Below, piece by piece: positions 58,427-64,000 of a DNA stretch of 64,000 bases. This DNA is from an uncultured Bacteroidota bacterium (lineage in GTDB: Bacteria; Bacteroidota; Bacteroidia; Chitinophagales; Chitinophagaceae). Position 1 is the first letter of the stretch. Each line of letters opens with the position of its first letter. The stretch is taken from NCBI GenBank assembly GCA_903938445.1, contig CAJADG010000081.1:1-64000 (forward strand), in the 5' to 3' direction. The notes beneath the pieces are model-generated. The model was given only the letters and a program-made list of their open reading frames with translations. It did not search any database and was not told the DNA's origin. A program made the position numbers and the translations under genes.

Positions 58427-59305
58427 ATGTCATCTTATACCATTAAGGATTTAGAGCAAATTTCTGGGATCAAAGCCCACACCATCCGTATTTGGGAGCA
58501 ACGATATCATTTTTTGCAACCTCAGCGAACGGAAACGAATATCAGATCCTATTCTGCCGAAGAATTAAAGGTGATTCTGAACGTGTCCCTATTAAATAAA
58601 TACGGGTTCAAGATTTCGCATATTGACAAAATGAGTCAAGCCGAAATTGAAGATAAGATCATTGGCTTGAACCAAATGGATGCCGAAAAGGAAAGAGTGG
58701 TGAATGCATTAATCAAGGACATGGTATCCTTGGACATGGTATCTTTCGAAAGACAATTAGATAATTACATCGCACAGAAAGGGATTGAGAAAACCATTAC
58801 CAATATTATCTTTTCATTCTTAGAACGTGTTGGGGTATTGTGGATTACCAATCACATTAATCCTGCTCAGGAACATTTAGCTTCTAATATTATCAGACAA
58901 AAAATCATATTGGGTATTGAAAGATTGCCAAGAAATATGGCGGCTCCTAAGTTGATTGTATTATTTATGCCAGAGGGTGAATACCATGAAATTGGATTAT
59001 TATTTGTTCAATATTTATTAAAGTTGAGAGGATATCACGTTGATTATTTAGGTGCGAATGTGCCCATTATCGATTTGAAATATTTGACTGAATTAAAGAA
59101 GGTTGACTACTTATACGCCCATATTACATCGCCCATTAAAGGCTTTAAATTGAACAAGTTTATGGAGCAAATCAGTCATTTGAATCCTAATATCCCCATT
59201 ATCCTTACAGGTCAAATGATGCAGGAATATAAAGGCCCTGTAGCCTCCCATATCAAAGTAATGAACTCTCTTTCACAAACTATGGAGATTTTGTCGAATT
59301 TATAA
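58427..59305 (+). CDS. carH: CarH-type MerR regulator with cobalamin-binding light-sensor domain
   Basis: Transcriptional repressor of 292 aa. MerR helix-turn-helix at residues ~3-70 (YTIKDLEQISGIKAHTIRIWEQRY), a four-helix cap at ~85-165 and a B12-binding Rossmann domain at ~175-292. It keeps the CarH photochemistry residues Trp139-x9-Glu149-His150 (WITNHINPAQEH) and the cobalamin ligand motif E-x-H-x2-G (His187 in GEYHEIG). In Thermus and Myxococcus such proteins bind adenosylcobalamin in the dark, tetramerise and repress carotenoid genes; light breaks the Co-C bond and releases DNA. Here it sits directly before the sigma factor-crt operon. Start ATG 58427. Confidence 0.9.
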   Translation: MSSYTIKDLEQISGIKAHTIRIWEQRYHFLQPQRTETNIRSYSAEELKVILNVSLLNKYGFKISHIDKMSQAEIEDKIIGLNQMDAEKERVVNALIKDMVSLDMVSFERQLDNYIAQKGIEKTITNIIFSFLERVGVLWITNHINPAQEHLASNIIRQKIILGIERLPRNMAAPKLIVLFMPEGEYHEIGLLFVQYLLKLRGYHVDYLGANVPIIDLKYLTELKKVDYLYAHITSPIKGFKLNKFMEQISHLNPNIPIILTGQMMQEYKGPVASHIKVMNSLSQTMEILSNL

Positions 59306-59353
59306 TCGCTTCTAACCATCAGGGAATCAACAGTTTAGCCATTATTTTTATTT

Positions 59354-59383
59354 TGTTTAATAAAAATATCGAAAGATTAAACA
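59354..59383. promoter_or_regulatory. Operator module 1: inverted TGTTTAAT half-sites, 22-bp spacing
   Basis: TGTTTAAT (59354-59361) and its exact complement ATTAAACA (59376-59383) are 22 bp apart start to start (two helical turns). Likely binding site of the adjacent CarH-type repressor. The left half overlaps TATTTTG, a near -7 element. Confidence 0.6.
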
Positions 59384-59402
59384 GAATATCAATTATTAGA
59401 CT

Positions 59403-59410
59403 TAGTTTTG
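59403..59410 (+). promoter_or_regulatory. -7 promoter element of the sigma factor-crt operon
   Basis: TAGTTTTG, an exact TAnnTTTG match ending 35 nt before the sigma-factor ATG at 59446. Its last two bases overlap the left half-site of operator module 2, so bound repressor would block the start site. Confidence 0.6.
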
Positions 59411-59438
59411 TTTAACATTATTGAAAAATAGTTAAACG
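59409..59438. promoter_or_regulatory. Operator module 2: inverted TGTTTAAC half-sites, 22-bp spacing
   Basis: TGTTTAAC (59409-59416) and GTTAAACG (59431-59438) repeat the arrangement of module 1 with the same 22-bp start-to-start spacing; only the outermost base of the pair differs. The modules are 55 bp apart. Covers the predicted transcription start. Confidence 0.6.
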
Positions 59439-59445
59439 AAATAAC

Positions 59446-59946
59446 ATGTCAAACGCAGAATTTAGCTTACTACTTACCGAAAACGCCGAGTTTTTAAGAC
59501 CATTTGCAGTGAATCTTACGAAAGACCATGAATCTGCAAAAGATCTTTTTCAAGAAACACTTTTCCGTGCTTTTTCTAACAAAGACAAGTACAATGTAGG
59601 TACCAATATTAAGGCATGGTTGTACACGATTATGCGTAATATTTTCATTAATGATTATCGCAAACGTTCAAAGCAATCTATTGTTTTTGATAGCACTCCC
59701 AATGATTATATTATTGACCAAACGCATACCAAGGTTTTAAACCAAGGAATGACTAATTTAAATATGCGTGAAGTGAATCAAATGATATTTGATTTGCCAG
59801 AATTATTTAGAATCCCTTTTAATTTGTACTTTGAAGGCTATAAATACAACGAAATTGCCGAAGAGTTGGGCGAACCATTAGGAACCATCAAAAGTCGCAT
59901 TCACTTTGCAAGAAAAATATTGAAACAAAAAATTGAAAGATATTAA
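59446..59946 (+). CDS. ECF-type RNA polymerase sigma factor
   Basis: Sigma-70 family factor of 166 aa with region 2 (~10-75: DLFQETLFRAF, NIKAWLYTIMRNIFIND) and region 4 (~110-160: IAEELGEPLGTIKSRIHFARKIL), no regions 1 or 3. No anti-sigma gene is adjacent, which suggests control by expression through the CarH-regulated promoter. First gene of the crt operon: crtI begins 7 nt after the stop. By analogy with light-driven sigma factors in Myxococcus and Streptomyces it may turn on the crt genes or other photoprotection genes (inference). Confidence 0.92.
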   Translation: MSNAEFSLLLTENAEFLRPFAVNLTKDHESAKDLFQETLFRAFSNKDKYNVGTNIKAWLYTIMRNIFINDYRKRSKQSIVFDSTPNDYIIDQTHTKVLNQGMTNLNMREVNQMIFDLPELFRIPFNLYFEGYKYNEIAEELGEPLGTIKSRIHFARKILKQKIERY

Positions 59947-59953
59947 AAATAGT

Positions 59954-61453
59954 ATGCCCAATTCTAATAAAAATGTACTCGTAATTGGTGCAGGTTTTGC
60001 AGGACTTTCTGCTGCGACTTTTTTAGCTCAAAAAGGTTGGCAAGTAACTGTAGTAGAAAAACACGATATGCCAGGTGGAAGAGCAAGAAAGTTTGAAGCA
60101 GATGGATTTGTTTTTGACATGGGCCCCAGTTGGTATTGGATGCCTGATGTGTTTGAAAAATATTTTTCAAAATTTGGAAAGCAGGTTAGTGACTATTATA
60201 ATTTAAAAAGATTAGATCCATCTTACACGGTTTATTTTGATGAAACACATTGGGATATGCCTGCTAATTATAATCAGTTAAAAGATTTATTAGAAAGCGT
60301 AGAACCCGGTGCTGGAAAGGCTTTGGACCAATTTATGGCCGAAGCTGAATATAAGTATAATGTGGGTGTTGGAAAATTAGTACATAAGCCTGGACAATCT
60401 ATATTTGAGTTTTTGGATTGGGAAGTTATTAAAGGTGTTTTTAAATTAGACATCTTTAAGTCGATGAAAAAACATGTCGCTCATTTTTTTAAGCATCCTT
60501 ATATTCAATCCATTATGGAGTTCCCGGTTTTATTTTTGGGAGCCCTGCCTCAAGATACACCTGCCTTATATAGTTTAATGAATTATGCAGATATTAAAGG
60601 GGGAACATGGTATCCTGAAAAAGGCATGTATAGTATTGTAAATGCAATGTATGAATTGGCAGTAGAACAGGGTGTTCAATTTTGTTTTGGTGAAGAAGTT
60701 AAACATATTGAAGTTGTTAATGGATTTGCAAAATCTGCAAGAACTATTAAGAAAATTGGCAACGAACAGAAAGAATATTTTTTTGATGTAATAATTGGTG
60801 CTGGAGATTATCATCATATTGAAACAAAATTATTAGATACAAAGTATCAATCTTACACCGATAAATATTGGGATGAAAGATTGATGGCACCAAGTTCTAT
60901 TTTATATTATGTAGGTTTGAATAAAAGAATAGAAAATGTATCCCATCATAATTTGTTTTTTGACACCGATTTTGGAGTGCATGGAAAAGAAATTTATACC
61001 GACCCTTCCTGGCCAAAAGAGCCCTTATTTTATGCAAGTGTTCCTTCCGTAACGGATCCAACGGTGGCTCCTGAGGGACACGAAAATTTATTTTTATTAA
61101 TTCCTATTGCTGCCGGTTTAAAAGGAGATACGGAGGAAGTGCGTAATATGTATTTTGATAAAATTGTAACAAGACTAGAAGCGCGTTGGGGACAATCTAT
61201 TAAAGACGCGATTGTGTTTAAAAAATCCTTTGGAGTGACTGATTTTGTATCTGAATACCACTCTTTTAAAGGTAATGCCTACGGATTGGCAAATACTTTA
61301 ATGCAAACTGCTATTTTAAAGCCATCTTGTAGGAGTAGAAAAATAAATAATTTATATTACACTGGACAATTAACAGTTCCTGGACCAGGAGTACCGCCAA
61401 GTTTAATTAGTGGTGAAGTGGTTGCTGAATTAGTTAATACAAATTATAAATAG
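59954..61453 (+). CDS. crtI: Phytoene desaturase
   Basis: FAD-dependent enzyme of 499 aa that introduces double bonds into phytoene to give lycopene. The N-terminal dinucleotide motif VLVIGAGFAGLSAATFLA, GGRARKFEADGFVFDMGPSWY and the C-terminal LYYTGQLTVPGPGVPPSLISGEV signature are typical. ATG 59954 is chosen over the TTG at 59933, which lies inside the sigma gene. 8 nt separate it from crtB. Membrane-associated carotenoid pathway, step 2. Confidence 0.95.
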   Translation: MPNSNKNVLVIGAGFAGLSAATFLAQKGWQVTVVEKHDMPGGRARKFEADGFVFDMGPSWYWMPDVFEKYFSKFGKQVSDYYNLKRLDPSYTVYFDETHWDMPANYNQLKDLLESVEPGAGKALDQFMAEAEYKYNVGVGKLVHKPGQSIFEFLDWEVIKGVFKLDIFKSMKKHVAHFFKHPYIQSIMEFPVLFLGALPQDTPALYSLMNYADIKGGTWYPEKGMYSIVNAMYELAVEQGVQFCFGEEVKHIEVVNGFAKSARTIKKIGNEQKEYFFDVIIGAGDYHHIETKLLDTKYQSYTDKYWDERLMAPSSILYYVGLNKRIENVSHHNLFFDTDFGVHGKEIYTDPSWPKEPLFYASVPSVTDPTVAPEGHENLFLLIPIAAGLKGDTEEVRNMYFDKIVTRLEARWGQSIKDAIVFKKSFGVTDFVSEYHSFKGNAYGLANTLMQTAILKPSCRSRKINNLYYTGQLTVPGPGVPPSLISGEVVAELVNTNYK

Positions 61454-61461
61454 AAAAAGAT

Positions 61462-62304
61462 ATGTCTTCGATTCAATTATATAATCAAGTAACTGCTGAA
61501 GCAAGCAAAAAGACCACCTTGATGTATAGTTCAAGTTTTTCCTTGGCTATTAAGTTGTTACATGCTGATTTACGTCAGCCCATTTATGATGTATATGGGT
61601 TAGTTCGATTTGCAGATGAAATTGTAGATACTTTTCATGATTTTGATAAAGCTGCTTTACTTAATCAATTTAAAAAAGATACTTATGAAGCGATTGAACA
61701 AGGTGTGAGTTTGAATCCAATTTTGCACCGTTTTCAATTAACAGTGAAAAAATATAATATTGAACTGGACTTGGTGGAAGCGTTTTTTAAGAGTATGGAA
61801 ATGGATTTGAGCAAGCAAGATTATGATGCACAAACTTATCAAACCTATATATATGGTAGTGCAGAAGTAGTTGGTTTAATGTGTTTGCATATTTTTTGTA
61901 ATGGAGATAAAGCCACTTATGAAAGTTTAAAACCTGCTGCTCAAAAATTAGGTGCTGCATTCCAGAAAGTAAATTTCTTAAGGGATATTAAAGCAGATTT
62001 CGAAGGTTTAGAACGTATGTATTTTCCAAATTGTGATTTTACTAATTTTAAAGAAGAAGATAAACGACAAATTGAGGATGACATTCAAGCTGATTTTTCT
62101 GGTGCTTTGGATGGAATTAAAGCATTGCCCATGAAAGCGAGATTTGGAGTATATGTAGCTTTTAAATATTACTACACACTTTTCAAGAAGATTAAAAAAA
62201 CGGAACACGATTCTATTTTAAAAATGCGTATTCGTATACCAGATTATAAGAAATTATTAATTCTAGCGAATGCAAGTATCCGTAGTCAGCTTAATTTATT
62301 TTAA
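61462..62304 (+). CDS. crtB: Phytoene synthase
   Basis: Squalene/phytoene synthase of 280 aa that condenses two geranylgeranyl diphosphates. The first Asp-rich motif is RFADEIVDTFHDFD (about 52), the second FLRDIKADFEGLERMYFP (about 172). Both magnesium-binding sets are complete. It follows crtI and precedes idi by 2 nt. The GGPP synthase gene is not visible in this window. Confidence 0.95.
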   Translation: MSSIQLYNQVTAEASKKTTLMYSSSFSLAIKLLHADLRQPIYDVYGLVRFADEIVDTFHDFDKAALLNQFKKDTYEAIEQGVSLNPILHRFQLTVKKYNIELDLVEAFFKSMEMDLSKQDYDAQTYQTYIYGSAEVVGLMCLHIFCNGDKATYESLKPAAQKLGAAFQKVNFLRDIKADFEGLERMYFPNCDFTNFKEEDKRQIEDDIQADFSGALDGIKALPMKARFGVYVAFKYYYTLFKKIKKTEHDSILKMRIRIPDYKKLLILANASIRSQLNLF

Positions 62305-62306
62305 CC

Positions 62307-62840
62307 ATGGATACTGTTGAGCAAGTTGTATTAGTGGATGAGCTCAATAATGAGTTAGGATTCATGGAAAAAATGAAAGCGCATCAGCTTGGCGTTTTAC
62401 ATAGAGCTTTCAGTGTTTTTCTTTTTGATGAAAATGGAAATATGTTATTGCAAAAAAGGGCTTTGGAAAAATACCATAGTCCAGGCCTTTGGACCAATAC
62501 TTGTTGTAGTCATCCAAGACCAGGTGAGCAAACGATTGATGCAGCAAAAAGAAGATTAATTGAAGAAATGGGGATTGTGGCGAATATGAGTTTGGCATTT
62601 GATTTTATTTATAAAGCTGACTTGGACCAGGATTTAACGGAGCATGAATTGGATTTTGTTTTTATTGGAACTTATAATGGAATCATTTCTCCTAATAGTT
62701 TAGAAGTTAGTGATTACCTTTACATAAGTATAAAAGAATTGACTGCTAAAATGGATGACAATGCAGATCAATTTACAGTTTGGTTTAAAATTGCATTTCC
62801 AAGAGTGATGCAATGGTATCAGTTGAATATTGTTAATTAG
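62307..62840 (+). CDS. idi: Isopentenyl-diphosphate isomerase, type 1
   Basis: Nudix-fold isomerase of 177 aa that interconverts IPP and DMAPP. The catalytic Cys is in NTCCSHPRPGE, the Nudix box RRLIEEMGI, and the catalytic Glu region in TEHELDFVFIG. Inside the crt operon it raises DMAPP supply for GGPP; it starts 2 nt after crtB. Start ATG 62307. Confidence 0.95.
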   Translation: MDTVEQVVLVDELNNELGFMEKMKAHQLGVLHRAFSVFLFDENGNMLLQKRALEKYHSPGLWTNTCCSHPRPGEQTIDAAKRRLIEEMGIVANMSLAFDFIYKADLDQDLTEHELDFVFIGTYNGIISPNSLEVSDYLYISIKELTAKMDDNADQFTVWFKIAFPRVMQWYQLNIVN

Positions 62841-62852
62841 AAAACTAAATAT

Positions 62853-63326
62853 ATGTTGTTATTTATTGCTGTAATGTTGGGCACTTTTGCCGTGATGGAA
62901 GGAATTACTTGGTTGACACATCGTTTTGTAATGCATGGTTTTTTGTGGTATTTACATGAGGATCATCATCAACCTACAGGACATTTTTTTGAAAAAAATG
63001 ATGCCTTCTTTTTAATCTTCGCTATCCCAAGTATGGCTTGTATTTTTTATGGCAATTTTGGCGGACCACTATGGGTTGCTGCTATTGGTACAGGTATTGC
63101 TATGTATGGTTTTGCCTATTTTATAGTACACGAAGTAATTATACATCAACGTATCAAATGGTTTACTAGATCTAATAGTAGATATATTAAAGCAATTCGT
63201 TGGGCGCATAAAATGCACCATAAGCATATTGGAAAAGAAGAAGGAGAAAGTTTCGGAATGCTTTTAGTTGCTAAAAAGTATTGGGATAAAGTTCGTCAAG
63301 ACGAGCGTATCCAAGCTAATGGATAA
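62853..63326 (+). CDS. crtZ: Beta-carotene hydroxylase
   Basis: Di-iron membrane hydroxylase of 157 aa of the fatty-acid hydroxylase superfamily, with about four helices. The His-box set is complete: HRFVMHG, HEDHH, and HKMHHKH with an additional HEVIIHQ. It adds 3- and 3'-hydroxyls to beta-carotene, giving zeaxanthin. Sits between idi and crtY; the order matches other Bacteroidota crt clusters. Confidence 0.92.
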   Translation: MLLFIAVMLGTFAVMEGITWLTHRFVMHGFLWYLHEDHHQPTGHFFEKNDAFFLIFAIPSMACIFYGNFGGPLWVAAIGTGIAMYGFAYFIVHEVIIHQRIKWFTRSNSRYIKAIRWAHKMHHKHIGKEEGESFGMLLVAKKYWDKVRQDERIQANG

Positions 63327-63332
63327 AAACTT

Positions 63333-64000
63333 GTGGAAACGAATAACACCATTCAACAGGAACCTGTTTTTGACATCATCATTGCTGGCGCAGGTTGCGC
63401 TGGCTTATCCTTACTATACGGCCTTATTACTGAAAGTAAATTAAGTCAGTTACGTGTTTTAGTAATTGACAAGGCATTGGAAAAATCAAATGATCGTACT
63501 TGGTGTTTTTGGGAAACTGAAAAAGGTCCCTTTGAATCTATTATTTGTAAGCAATGGGATGCAATAACTGTACATAAAAATTCTTTTTCAAGGCAATTAA
63601 CAACTACGCCCTATACCTATAAAATGATACAGGGGTTGGATTTTTATAATTTTGTAATAATGGAAGCCAAAAAATTTTCGAATATTTTTTGGCAGGAAGC
63701 AGCAATTACAAACATTGAAACATTAAACAACAATGCTATTGTTTATTGGGAAGGAGGTTCAGCAAAAGCTTCAAAAGTATTTTCGAGTATTTTACCCATT
63801 GATTCTTTATATACCATTAGTCAATCAACCAATACAAAACCTTTTTTATGGCAACATTTTAAAGGGTTGCTTGTTGAATTTGAGCAACCTGTTTTTGATG
63901 CTCATATCGCTACTTTAATGGATTTTAATGTTGACCAAAAAGGAGCAACTGCATTTATGTATCTGCTTCCATTGGATAATAAAAAAGCATTGGTAGAATA
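63333..64000 (+). CDS. crtY: Lycopene beta-cyclase (CrtY type), truncated at the window end
   Basis: An open frame runs from the GTG at 63333 through the last base (222 codons visible). The FAD-binding motif DIIIAGAGCAGLSLLYGL follows a short leader, then VLVIDKALEKSNDRTWCFWE, the Trp-Cys-Phe-Trp pattern of CrtY-type lycopene cyclases, and ATLMDFNVDQKG. It would turn lycopene into beta-carotene, the substrate of CrtZ. No ATG exists near the start, and an in-frame TAA (the crtZ stop, 63324-63326) limits it to this GTG, 6 nt after crtZ. The 3' end lies beyond the window. Confidence 0.9.
   Translation, partial: METNNTIQQEPVFDIIIAGAGCAGLSLLYGLITESKLSQLRVLVIDKALEKSNDRTWCFWETEKGPFESIICKQWDAITVHKNSFSRQLTTTPYTYKMIQGLDFYNFVIMEAKKFSNIFWQEAAITNIETLNNNAIVYWEGGSAKASKVFSSILPIDSLYTISQSTNTKPFLWQHFKGLLVEFEQPVFDAHIATLMDFNVDQKGATAFMYLLPLDNKKALVE

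Follow-up and report, generated by a model that had tools for sequence, protein, structure and literature searches.

The 64,000 nt of Chitinophagaceae DNA analysed here (the window) carry a MerR-type regulator gene next to a carotenoid operon, and we consider it highly likely that its product is an adenosylcobalamin (AdoCbl)-dependent CarH light repressor, of a type belonging to this family, acting via two modules of inverted half-sites on an operon headed by a sigma factor gene. Judged from sequence, the system appears to combine a CarH-type sensor with a paired operator resembling that of class II LitR, at a different spacing, and an ECF-sigma-headed Bacteroidota operon. In the proposed mechanism, an oligomer of B12-loaded CarH would bind in the dark to both modules, in each of which two TnnACA half-sites stand in inverted orientation (TGTTTAA N16-17 TTAAACA). 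The modules lie about five helical turns apart, and one would lie immediately upstream of the promoter, the other over the -7 element and the transcription start, such that the bound protein would shut off the sigma-crtI-crtB-idi-crtZ-crtY operon. Light would break the Co-C bond, CarH would leave the DNA and carotenoids would be made. We infer this DNA binding, repression, release by light and regulation of targets from the protein family, the conservation of the operator, its co-occurrence with CarH and the presence of an adenosyltransferase gene; the points that count against it include an Ile140 in place of His132, the replaced Ser and Gly of the B12 motif, four CarH genomes that lack the pair, and rhodopsin sites found in a minority. 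PTPS-folE is probably a further target of this repressor, as is rhodopsin-blh in the window genome and some relatives.

Table 1. Positions of the regulator, candidate operator modules, promoter elements and operon genes in the window, and of two further candidate sites in the same genome
Feature	Position	Strand	Basis or remark
carH, CarH-type MerR regulator, 292 aa	58427..59305	+	HTH, four-helix and Rossmann cobalamin domain
Distal module, left half-site TGTTTAAT (minus strand TTAAACA)	59354..59361	-	located by search of window
Distal module, right half-site ATTAAACA	59376..59383	+	located by search of window
-7 element TAGTTTTG, TAnnTTTG-like	59403..59410	+	common to the four closest relatives examined
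Proximal module, left half-site TGTTTAAC	59409..59416	-	located by search of window
Equivalent of family -7-like TAACTTTA/G, here TAACATTA	59413..59420	+	degenerate
Proximal module, right half-site GTTAAACG	59431..59438	+	located by search of window; one mismatch
ECF-type sigma factor, first gene of presumed operon	59446..59946	+	Sigma70_r2, r4_2; synteny
crtI, phytoene desaturase family	59954..61453	+	NF058655 CrtID, 724.6 bits, cut-off 640
crtB, phytoene synthase-like	61462..62304	+	PF00494 SQS_PSY
idi, isopentenyl-diphosphate isomerase	62307..62840	+	NF002995 over cut-off
Presumed carotene hydroxylase (crtZ-like)	62853..63326	+	histidine pattern; no Pfam or NCBIfam match
Presumed lycopene cyclase-like (crtY-like), runs past window	63333..64000	+	ORF end in L305
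Perfect inverted pair before PTPS-folE	window genome (G000) C44:20588-20617 = L145:6089-6118
Perfect inverted pair between rhodopsin-blh and divergent gene	window genome (G000) C8:18099-18128 = L144:3600-3629

The gene order in the window is rfbA-like, carH, ECF sigma, crtI, crtB, idi, crtZ-like and crtY-like. The gene preceding carH we take to be rfbA-like, the crtZ-like assignment is our reading of a histidine pattern and the last gene is presumably crtY-like. For crtI the ATG at 59954 was chosen as the start, the open frame also allowing a TTG at 59933. One CarH-like match was found in the window genome (2.24 Mb in 92 contigs).

The MerR protein encoded in the window belongs to the CarH-type cobalamin sensors. 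It includes an N-terminal MerR HTH, exceeds the Pfam cut-offs for MerR_1 and MerR (PF13411 and PF00376) and for B12-binding_2, and matches B12-binding below the cut-off of that family. TtCarH/LitR was the best match in a PDB search, and the CarH equivalog NF052513 ranked first among 13 NCBIfam families at 102 bits against a cut-off of 400, which makes the protein homologous to the modelled equivalog while lying outside it. The predicted structure (mean pLDDT 90) found its best solved match in the cobalamin domains of TtCarH (VIA Z about 17, ~195 residues), followed by photocobilins and CtMerR (Z 15.6-16.2 for CtMerR). Retention of the four-helix part alone, the trait of class II LitR, was not seen; the model contains a predicted Rossmann part and the lower-ligand His is kept.

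The adenosyl-capping motif Wx9EH (W139, E149 and H150) and the lower-ligand His in D/ExHx2G (E185, H187 and G190) are both present, and across 70 family loci W139 is kept in 70, E149 in 68, H150 in 69, E185 in 70 and H187 in 69. The signature GxxW, EH, GxxH, GxxxP, which is tied to light-responsive domains in the accessible part of PMC11796333, is complete (GVLW, EH, GEYH, GANVP). The full B12 motif D/ExHx2Gx41SxTx22-27GG reads E-x-H-x2-G-x41-H-x-T-x26-T-G; its SxT/V-then-GG part is absent (HIT at 232-234, TG at 261-262), with His232 and Thr261 replacing the Ser and the first Gly. In the 70 family loci, position 232 is H in all, 261 is S in 66 and T in four, and 262 is G in all. The residue following Trp139 is Ile140, the place of His132 in Thermus CarH, and a His is found there in three of the 70 family loci and one of the 80 named loci (the best 80 of 582, a set that overlaps the first). 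The first-pass annotation held that every CarH-defining residue is kept, which stands for W139, E149, H150, E185, H187 and G190 and fails for Ile140 in the place of His132 and for the replaced Ser and Gly, though the SxT/V-GG remainder is not an established requirement for CarH function and the His after Trp is not CarH-defining.

His132 of TtCarH is described as the upper cobalt ligand of the light state, and many CarH proteins are described as having such a His. Its loss here, together with the altered tail of the B12 motif, would suit a regulator that uses the inverted pairs as its operator and is switched by how much AdoCbl is available (B12 sufficiency) or by some other signal instead of light, and class II LitR and CarA, as described in the accessible parts of PMC9758184 and PMC9304148, act without direct B12 photochemistry. 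We regard this as unlikely, since the W, EH and lower-ligand His residues are kept almost without exception, some of the further sites described below precede light-related genes, and CtMerR, with an Arg at the His132 place, monomerises in light according to the accessible part of PMC11796333. The accessible part of PMC10442372 gives the H132A variant of TtCarH as mostly tetrameric after light and cites a contrary earlier report. As for the cofactor that an AdoCbl-dependent light repressor would need, a route appears to exist in the window genome, which has a Cob_adeno_trans (adenosyltransferase) gene at C44:9443-9943; the gene is found in 142 of 147 family genomes and its presence therefore does not discriminate.

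All four half-sites that the first-pass annotation placed at 59354/59376 and 59409/59431 were found there, the one at 59431 with a single mismatch (ACG for ACA). A spaced search of the whole 64-kb window permitting up to one mismatch returned the two crt modules only, with 0 and 1 mismatch, and shuffles of the window gave a mean of 0.18 matches, two matches being reached in 2 of 100 shuffles with no requirement that they be adjacent. The doubt that attaches to chance matches in a single window is removed by the conservation of the half-sites in relatives. The same annotation made its proposal depend on the half-sites being kept in relatives that share the operon, and the proposal passed this check: of the 63 family loci in which carH and the sigma gene are linked (70 loci less seven with no sigma gene in reach), 59 have the proximal inverted pair with up to one mismatch per half-site. 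Two of the four misses, L067 and L068, are due to a 29-bp gap and both carry the pair when 170 bp is read. Among named loci with a sigma gene in reach (74, being the best 80 of 582 less six with none), the proximal pair was found in 73 and the distal pair in 59; this set overlaps the family set and the two tallies are not independent. Named relatives among these best 80 of 582 are lake MAGs with CarH identity of up to 84 %, and Sediminibacterium, Hydrotalea and Ferruginibacter are also represented, which makes Chitinophagaceae the likely family.

Perfect TGTTTAA...TTAAACA pairs in the 63 carH-then-sigma loci have a 7-mer start-to-start distance of 23 in 13 and 24 in 45, and Markov-shuffled controls of these loci yielded at most one perfect pair at any spacing. 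When the upstream regions were aligned (31 duplicates of 197 having been removed), the half-sites of 139 proximal and 93 distal modules were near-invariant and the spacer mostly variable, and in 86 of the 93 the distance from one left arm to the other was 55-57 bp, or about five helical turns. The right arm contains TAAACA, which fits TnnACA, given as the core of known CarH operators in the accessible part of PMC9304148. Three tandem TnnACA direct repeats at 11 bp were found in none of the 139 pair-bearing promoters and two in six, against a shuffled mean of 2.5, all 139 having been selected for carrying the inverted pair. A reading of the operator as direct repeats was rejected on these counts, and the inverted arrangement, already contrasted with the Thermus direct repeats in the first-pass annotation, holds over the 139 promoters. 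The same counts, and the presence of the CarH core within the half-sites, argue against the idea that CarH binds elsewhere, or to 11-bp direct repeats, while some other dimeric regulator, found alongside CarH, binds the inverted pairs. Such a regulator would be compatible with the co-occurrence of CarH and the pair, which is a correlation, and we consider it very unlikely.

The -7-like sequence seen family-wide is TAACTTTA/G, which lies inside the proximal left half-site and has a weak TTTGG ~20 bp upstream; together these match the consensus of a Bacteroidota -33/-7 promoter. On this reading the distal module lies immediately upstream of the promoter, and the proximal one covers the -7 element and start. 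The window and its four closest relatives have a TAnnTTTG match 10 bp further upstream than the family -7 (59403 against 59413). In the window this is TAGTTTTG, which lies at -43 relative to the start of the sigma gene and ends on the proximal left arm. The perfect -7 element claimed for 59403-59410 is thus present, and TAnnTTTG is kept at this position in the four closest relatives (L177-L180), but it is absent from L181-L183 and is not a family-wide feature.

Co-occurrence of the pair with CarH was examined in 147 family genomes, 102 of which have the sigma factor gene, using E 1e-60 as the threshold for a CarH orthologue. Among sigma-bearing genomes, the pair (up to one mismatch in all) is found in 73 of 77 with a CarH orthologue, the window genome included, in two of five with a weak CarH match only and in one of 20 with no CarH match. 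The difference between genomes with an orthologue and those lacking CarH gave a Fisher p of 2.4e-15, uncorrected for kinship. In both weak-match genomes with the pair, the contig begins within 325 bases of the sigma gene and hence an adjacent carH would be cut off. The orthologue-bearing genomes with no pair are G085, G096, G099 and G111, and the single CarH-less genome with it, G112, is 69 % complete. Five genera include both states: in four the CarH-less member has no pair, one of these retaining a two-mismatch remnant, and in the fifth the CarH-less member, the 69 % complete genome, keeps it. Where carH is elsewhere or divergent, the pair is kept in nine of ten orthologue-bearing genomes, G099 being the miss.

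Twenty family genomes retain the ECF sigma factor but have no CarH match, and 19 of them lack the operator. The position of the half-sites directly before the sigma gene, overlapping the -7-like region, would also fit promoter elements read by the sigma factor itself in an autoregulatory loop. This is disfavoured by the CarH-less genomes, and inverted pairs are also found before crtI with no sigma gene, before carH, before PTPS-folE and before photolyase; we judge autoregulation to be extremely unlikely. The AdoCbl-dependent repressor remains our preferred reading.

The paired sites appear to mark genes outside the pigment operon, which the first-pass annotation had missed. Of the 147 family genomes, 85 contain perfect pairs, and a control spacing still gives such pairs in 16, from which it follows that some perfect pairs are due to chance. 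Three occur in the window genome, namely the distal crt module and the sites that precede PTPS-folE and rhodopsin-blh, genes whose names have domain support. The PTPS gene was found in 17 of 20 close relatives and one of the 17 loci was dropped as incomplete; the pair is at the same position in 13 of the 16 readable close relatives with up to one mismatch in all (expected 0.035), and in 14 of 16 with up to two. It is followed by a TAACTTT-type -7.

The rhodopsin gene is less widespread in the family (13 of 147 genomes) than in close relatives (18 of 20). With up to one mismatch, the pair before it was found in four of 16 readable close-relative regions (chance 0.165; three of 19 loci were dropped as incomplete) and in three of 13 family regions (chance 0.08), the window genome being included in each count. 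Universal control of rhodopsin was therefore not upheld, the pair being above chance but limited to some lineages. In the window genome 286 bp separate the pair from the rhodopsin start and 108 bp separate it from the divergent gene, which we take to be threonine-synthase-like, and these distances leave the target unsure.

Two further sites with one mismatch in the window genome, C5:7505 and C12:4585 (L293 and L294), are probably chance occurrences; we take their neighbours to be a glutamine-synthetase-like ORF and a peptidase-like ORF, the start of which is overlapped. Sites with up to two mismatches in this genome (68) were not in excess of a reversed-pattern control (91).

In other genomes, a pair precedes a photolyase gene (by Pfam) in L292, what we take to be a photolyase-like operon in L148, an SDR gene in L162, carH itself in L150 and L153, and crtI directly, with no sigma gene between, in L149, L155 and L160. 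The L148 ORF preceding the photolyase-like gene, taken for an SRPBCC protein, had no Pfam match. In L149, L150, L155 and L160 a distant CarH-like gene (35-39 % identity) adjoins crtI with no sigma gene, and a like site lies before crtI or carH. In four close relatives (L278, L279, L284 and L288) the operator is 57-58 bp from a divergent acyltransferase-like gene and a polyprenyl synthase gene follows that for a HAD hydrolase; the operator abuts the HAD start codon in three of the four, the contig of the remaining one being cut. The site in these four may reflect shared ancestry only. A perfect pair at L146:3141-3170, ~160 bp before a gene that we presume to encode the primary sigma factor, was seen in one relative and may be due to chance. 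Genes with no evident light role adjoin the site in six of 18 loci (L146, L147, L154, L156, L158 and L161), a set hand-picked from the non-sigma sites among the matches listed, and in five of 16 loci (L282, L283, L285, L287 and L291), a set made up of non-crt sites plus one crt site (L281). The gene names in both sets are mostly our tentative assignments from sequence, some with domain support.

The window protein shares its domain order, Wx9EH, ExHx2G and fold with the class I LitR proteins, CarH of Thermus thermophilus and Bacillus megaterium, as well as a predicted carotenoid operon target and the TnnACA half-site core. It differs from them in having no His after the Trp and a B12 motif with HxT and TG, and in the ECF sigma factor that heads the operon. 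The operators of these CarH proteins are three to four tandem 11-bp direct repeats, whereas here the 8-mers form inverted pairs, 22-23 bp start-to-start. The first-pass annotation was right in this contrast but missed a precedent for paired sites, namely the TGTACA-N12-TGTACA sites of the Pseudomonas class II LitR proteins PplR1 and PmlR2 (accessible part of PMC9758184). TGTACA-N12-TGTACA may be read, in our analysis, as inverted TnnACA halves. The TnnACA starts would then be 18 bp apart (by arithmetic) against 24-25 here. According to the same part of PMC9758184, one Pseudomonas site overlaps the -35 and the other lies between the transcription start and the start codon, the light-induced genes include folE, photolyase and cryB, with an SDR in the cluster and folE LitR-dependent; that part describes no sigma-headed carotenoid operon, which the window has. 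Class II LitR keeps the four-helix part of the B12 domain only, and PmlR2 takes its signal from a short LOV protein.

CtMerR of Chloracidobacterium thermophilum is likewise described as a MerR-cobalamin light sensor with no His at the His132 place (Arg), but its DNA-binding domain is distant and the accessible part of PMC11796333 reports no operator. In Myxococcus xanthus, CarA and CarH also have a carotenoid target, and their operator was once given as two inverted repeats near the promoter; the accessible part of PMC9304148 has later work reading it as direct repeats. CarA is B12-independent. Among the openly licensed PMC papers listed, titles and starts of abstracts yielded no description of this operator or regulon.

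In another Bacteroidota family, Chryseobacterium lacus makes light-induced carotenoids, and the accessible part of PMC7064467 records that no car or lit gene was found. The present locus offers a testable candidate operator for B12 light regulation in a lake and soil family of Bacteroidota and hints at the way in which inverted instead of direct repeats may be recognised by a CarH-type protein, and the family supplies many natural CarH variants that lack the light-state histidine. More broadly, and with slightly less than even confidence, we suggest that in the Chitinophagaceae a B12 photoreceptor with no bis-His light state may, through inverted modules, serve as a master light repressor that links carotenoid formation with pterin synthesis and, in some lineages, with rhodopsin and the enzyme that makes its retinal, with photolyase and with a polyprenyl synthase operon. 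Such a regulon would respond to green light and serve photoprotection as well as light-driven proton pumping, and the locus hints that a B12 photoreceptor may be connected with a rhodopsin operon.
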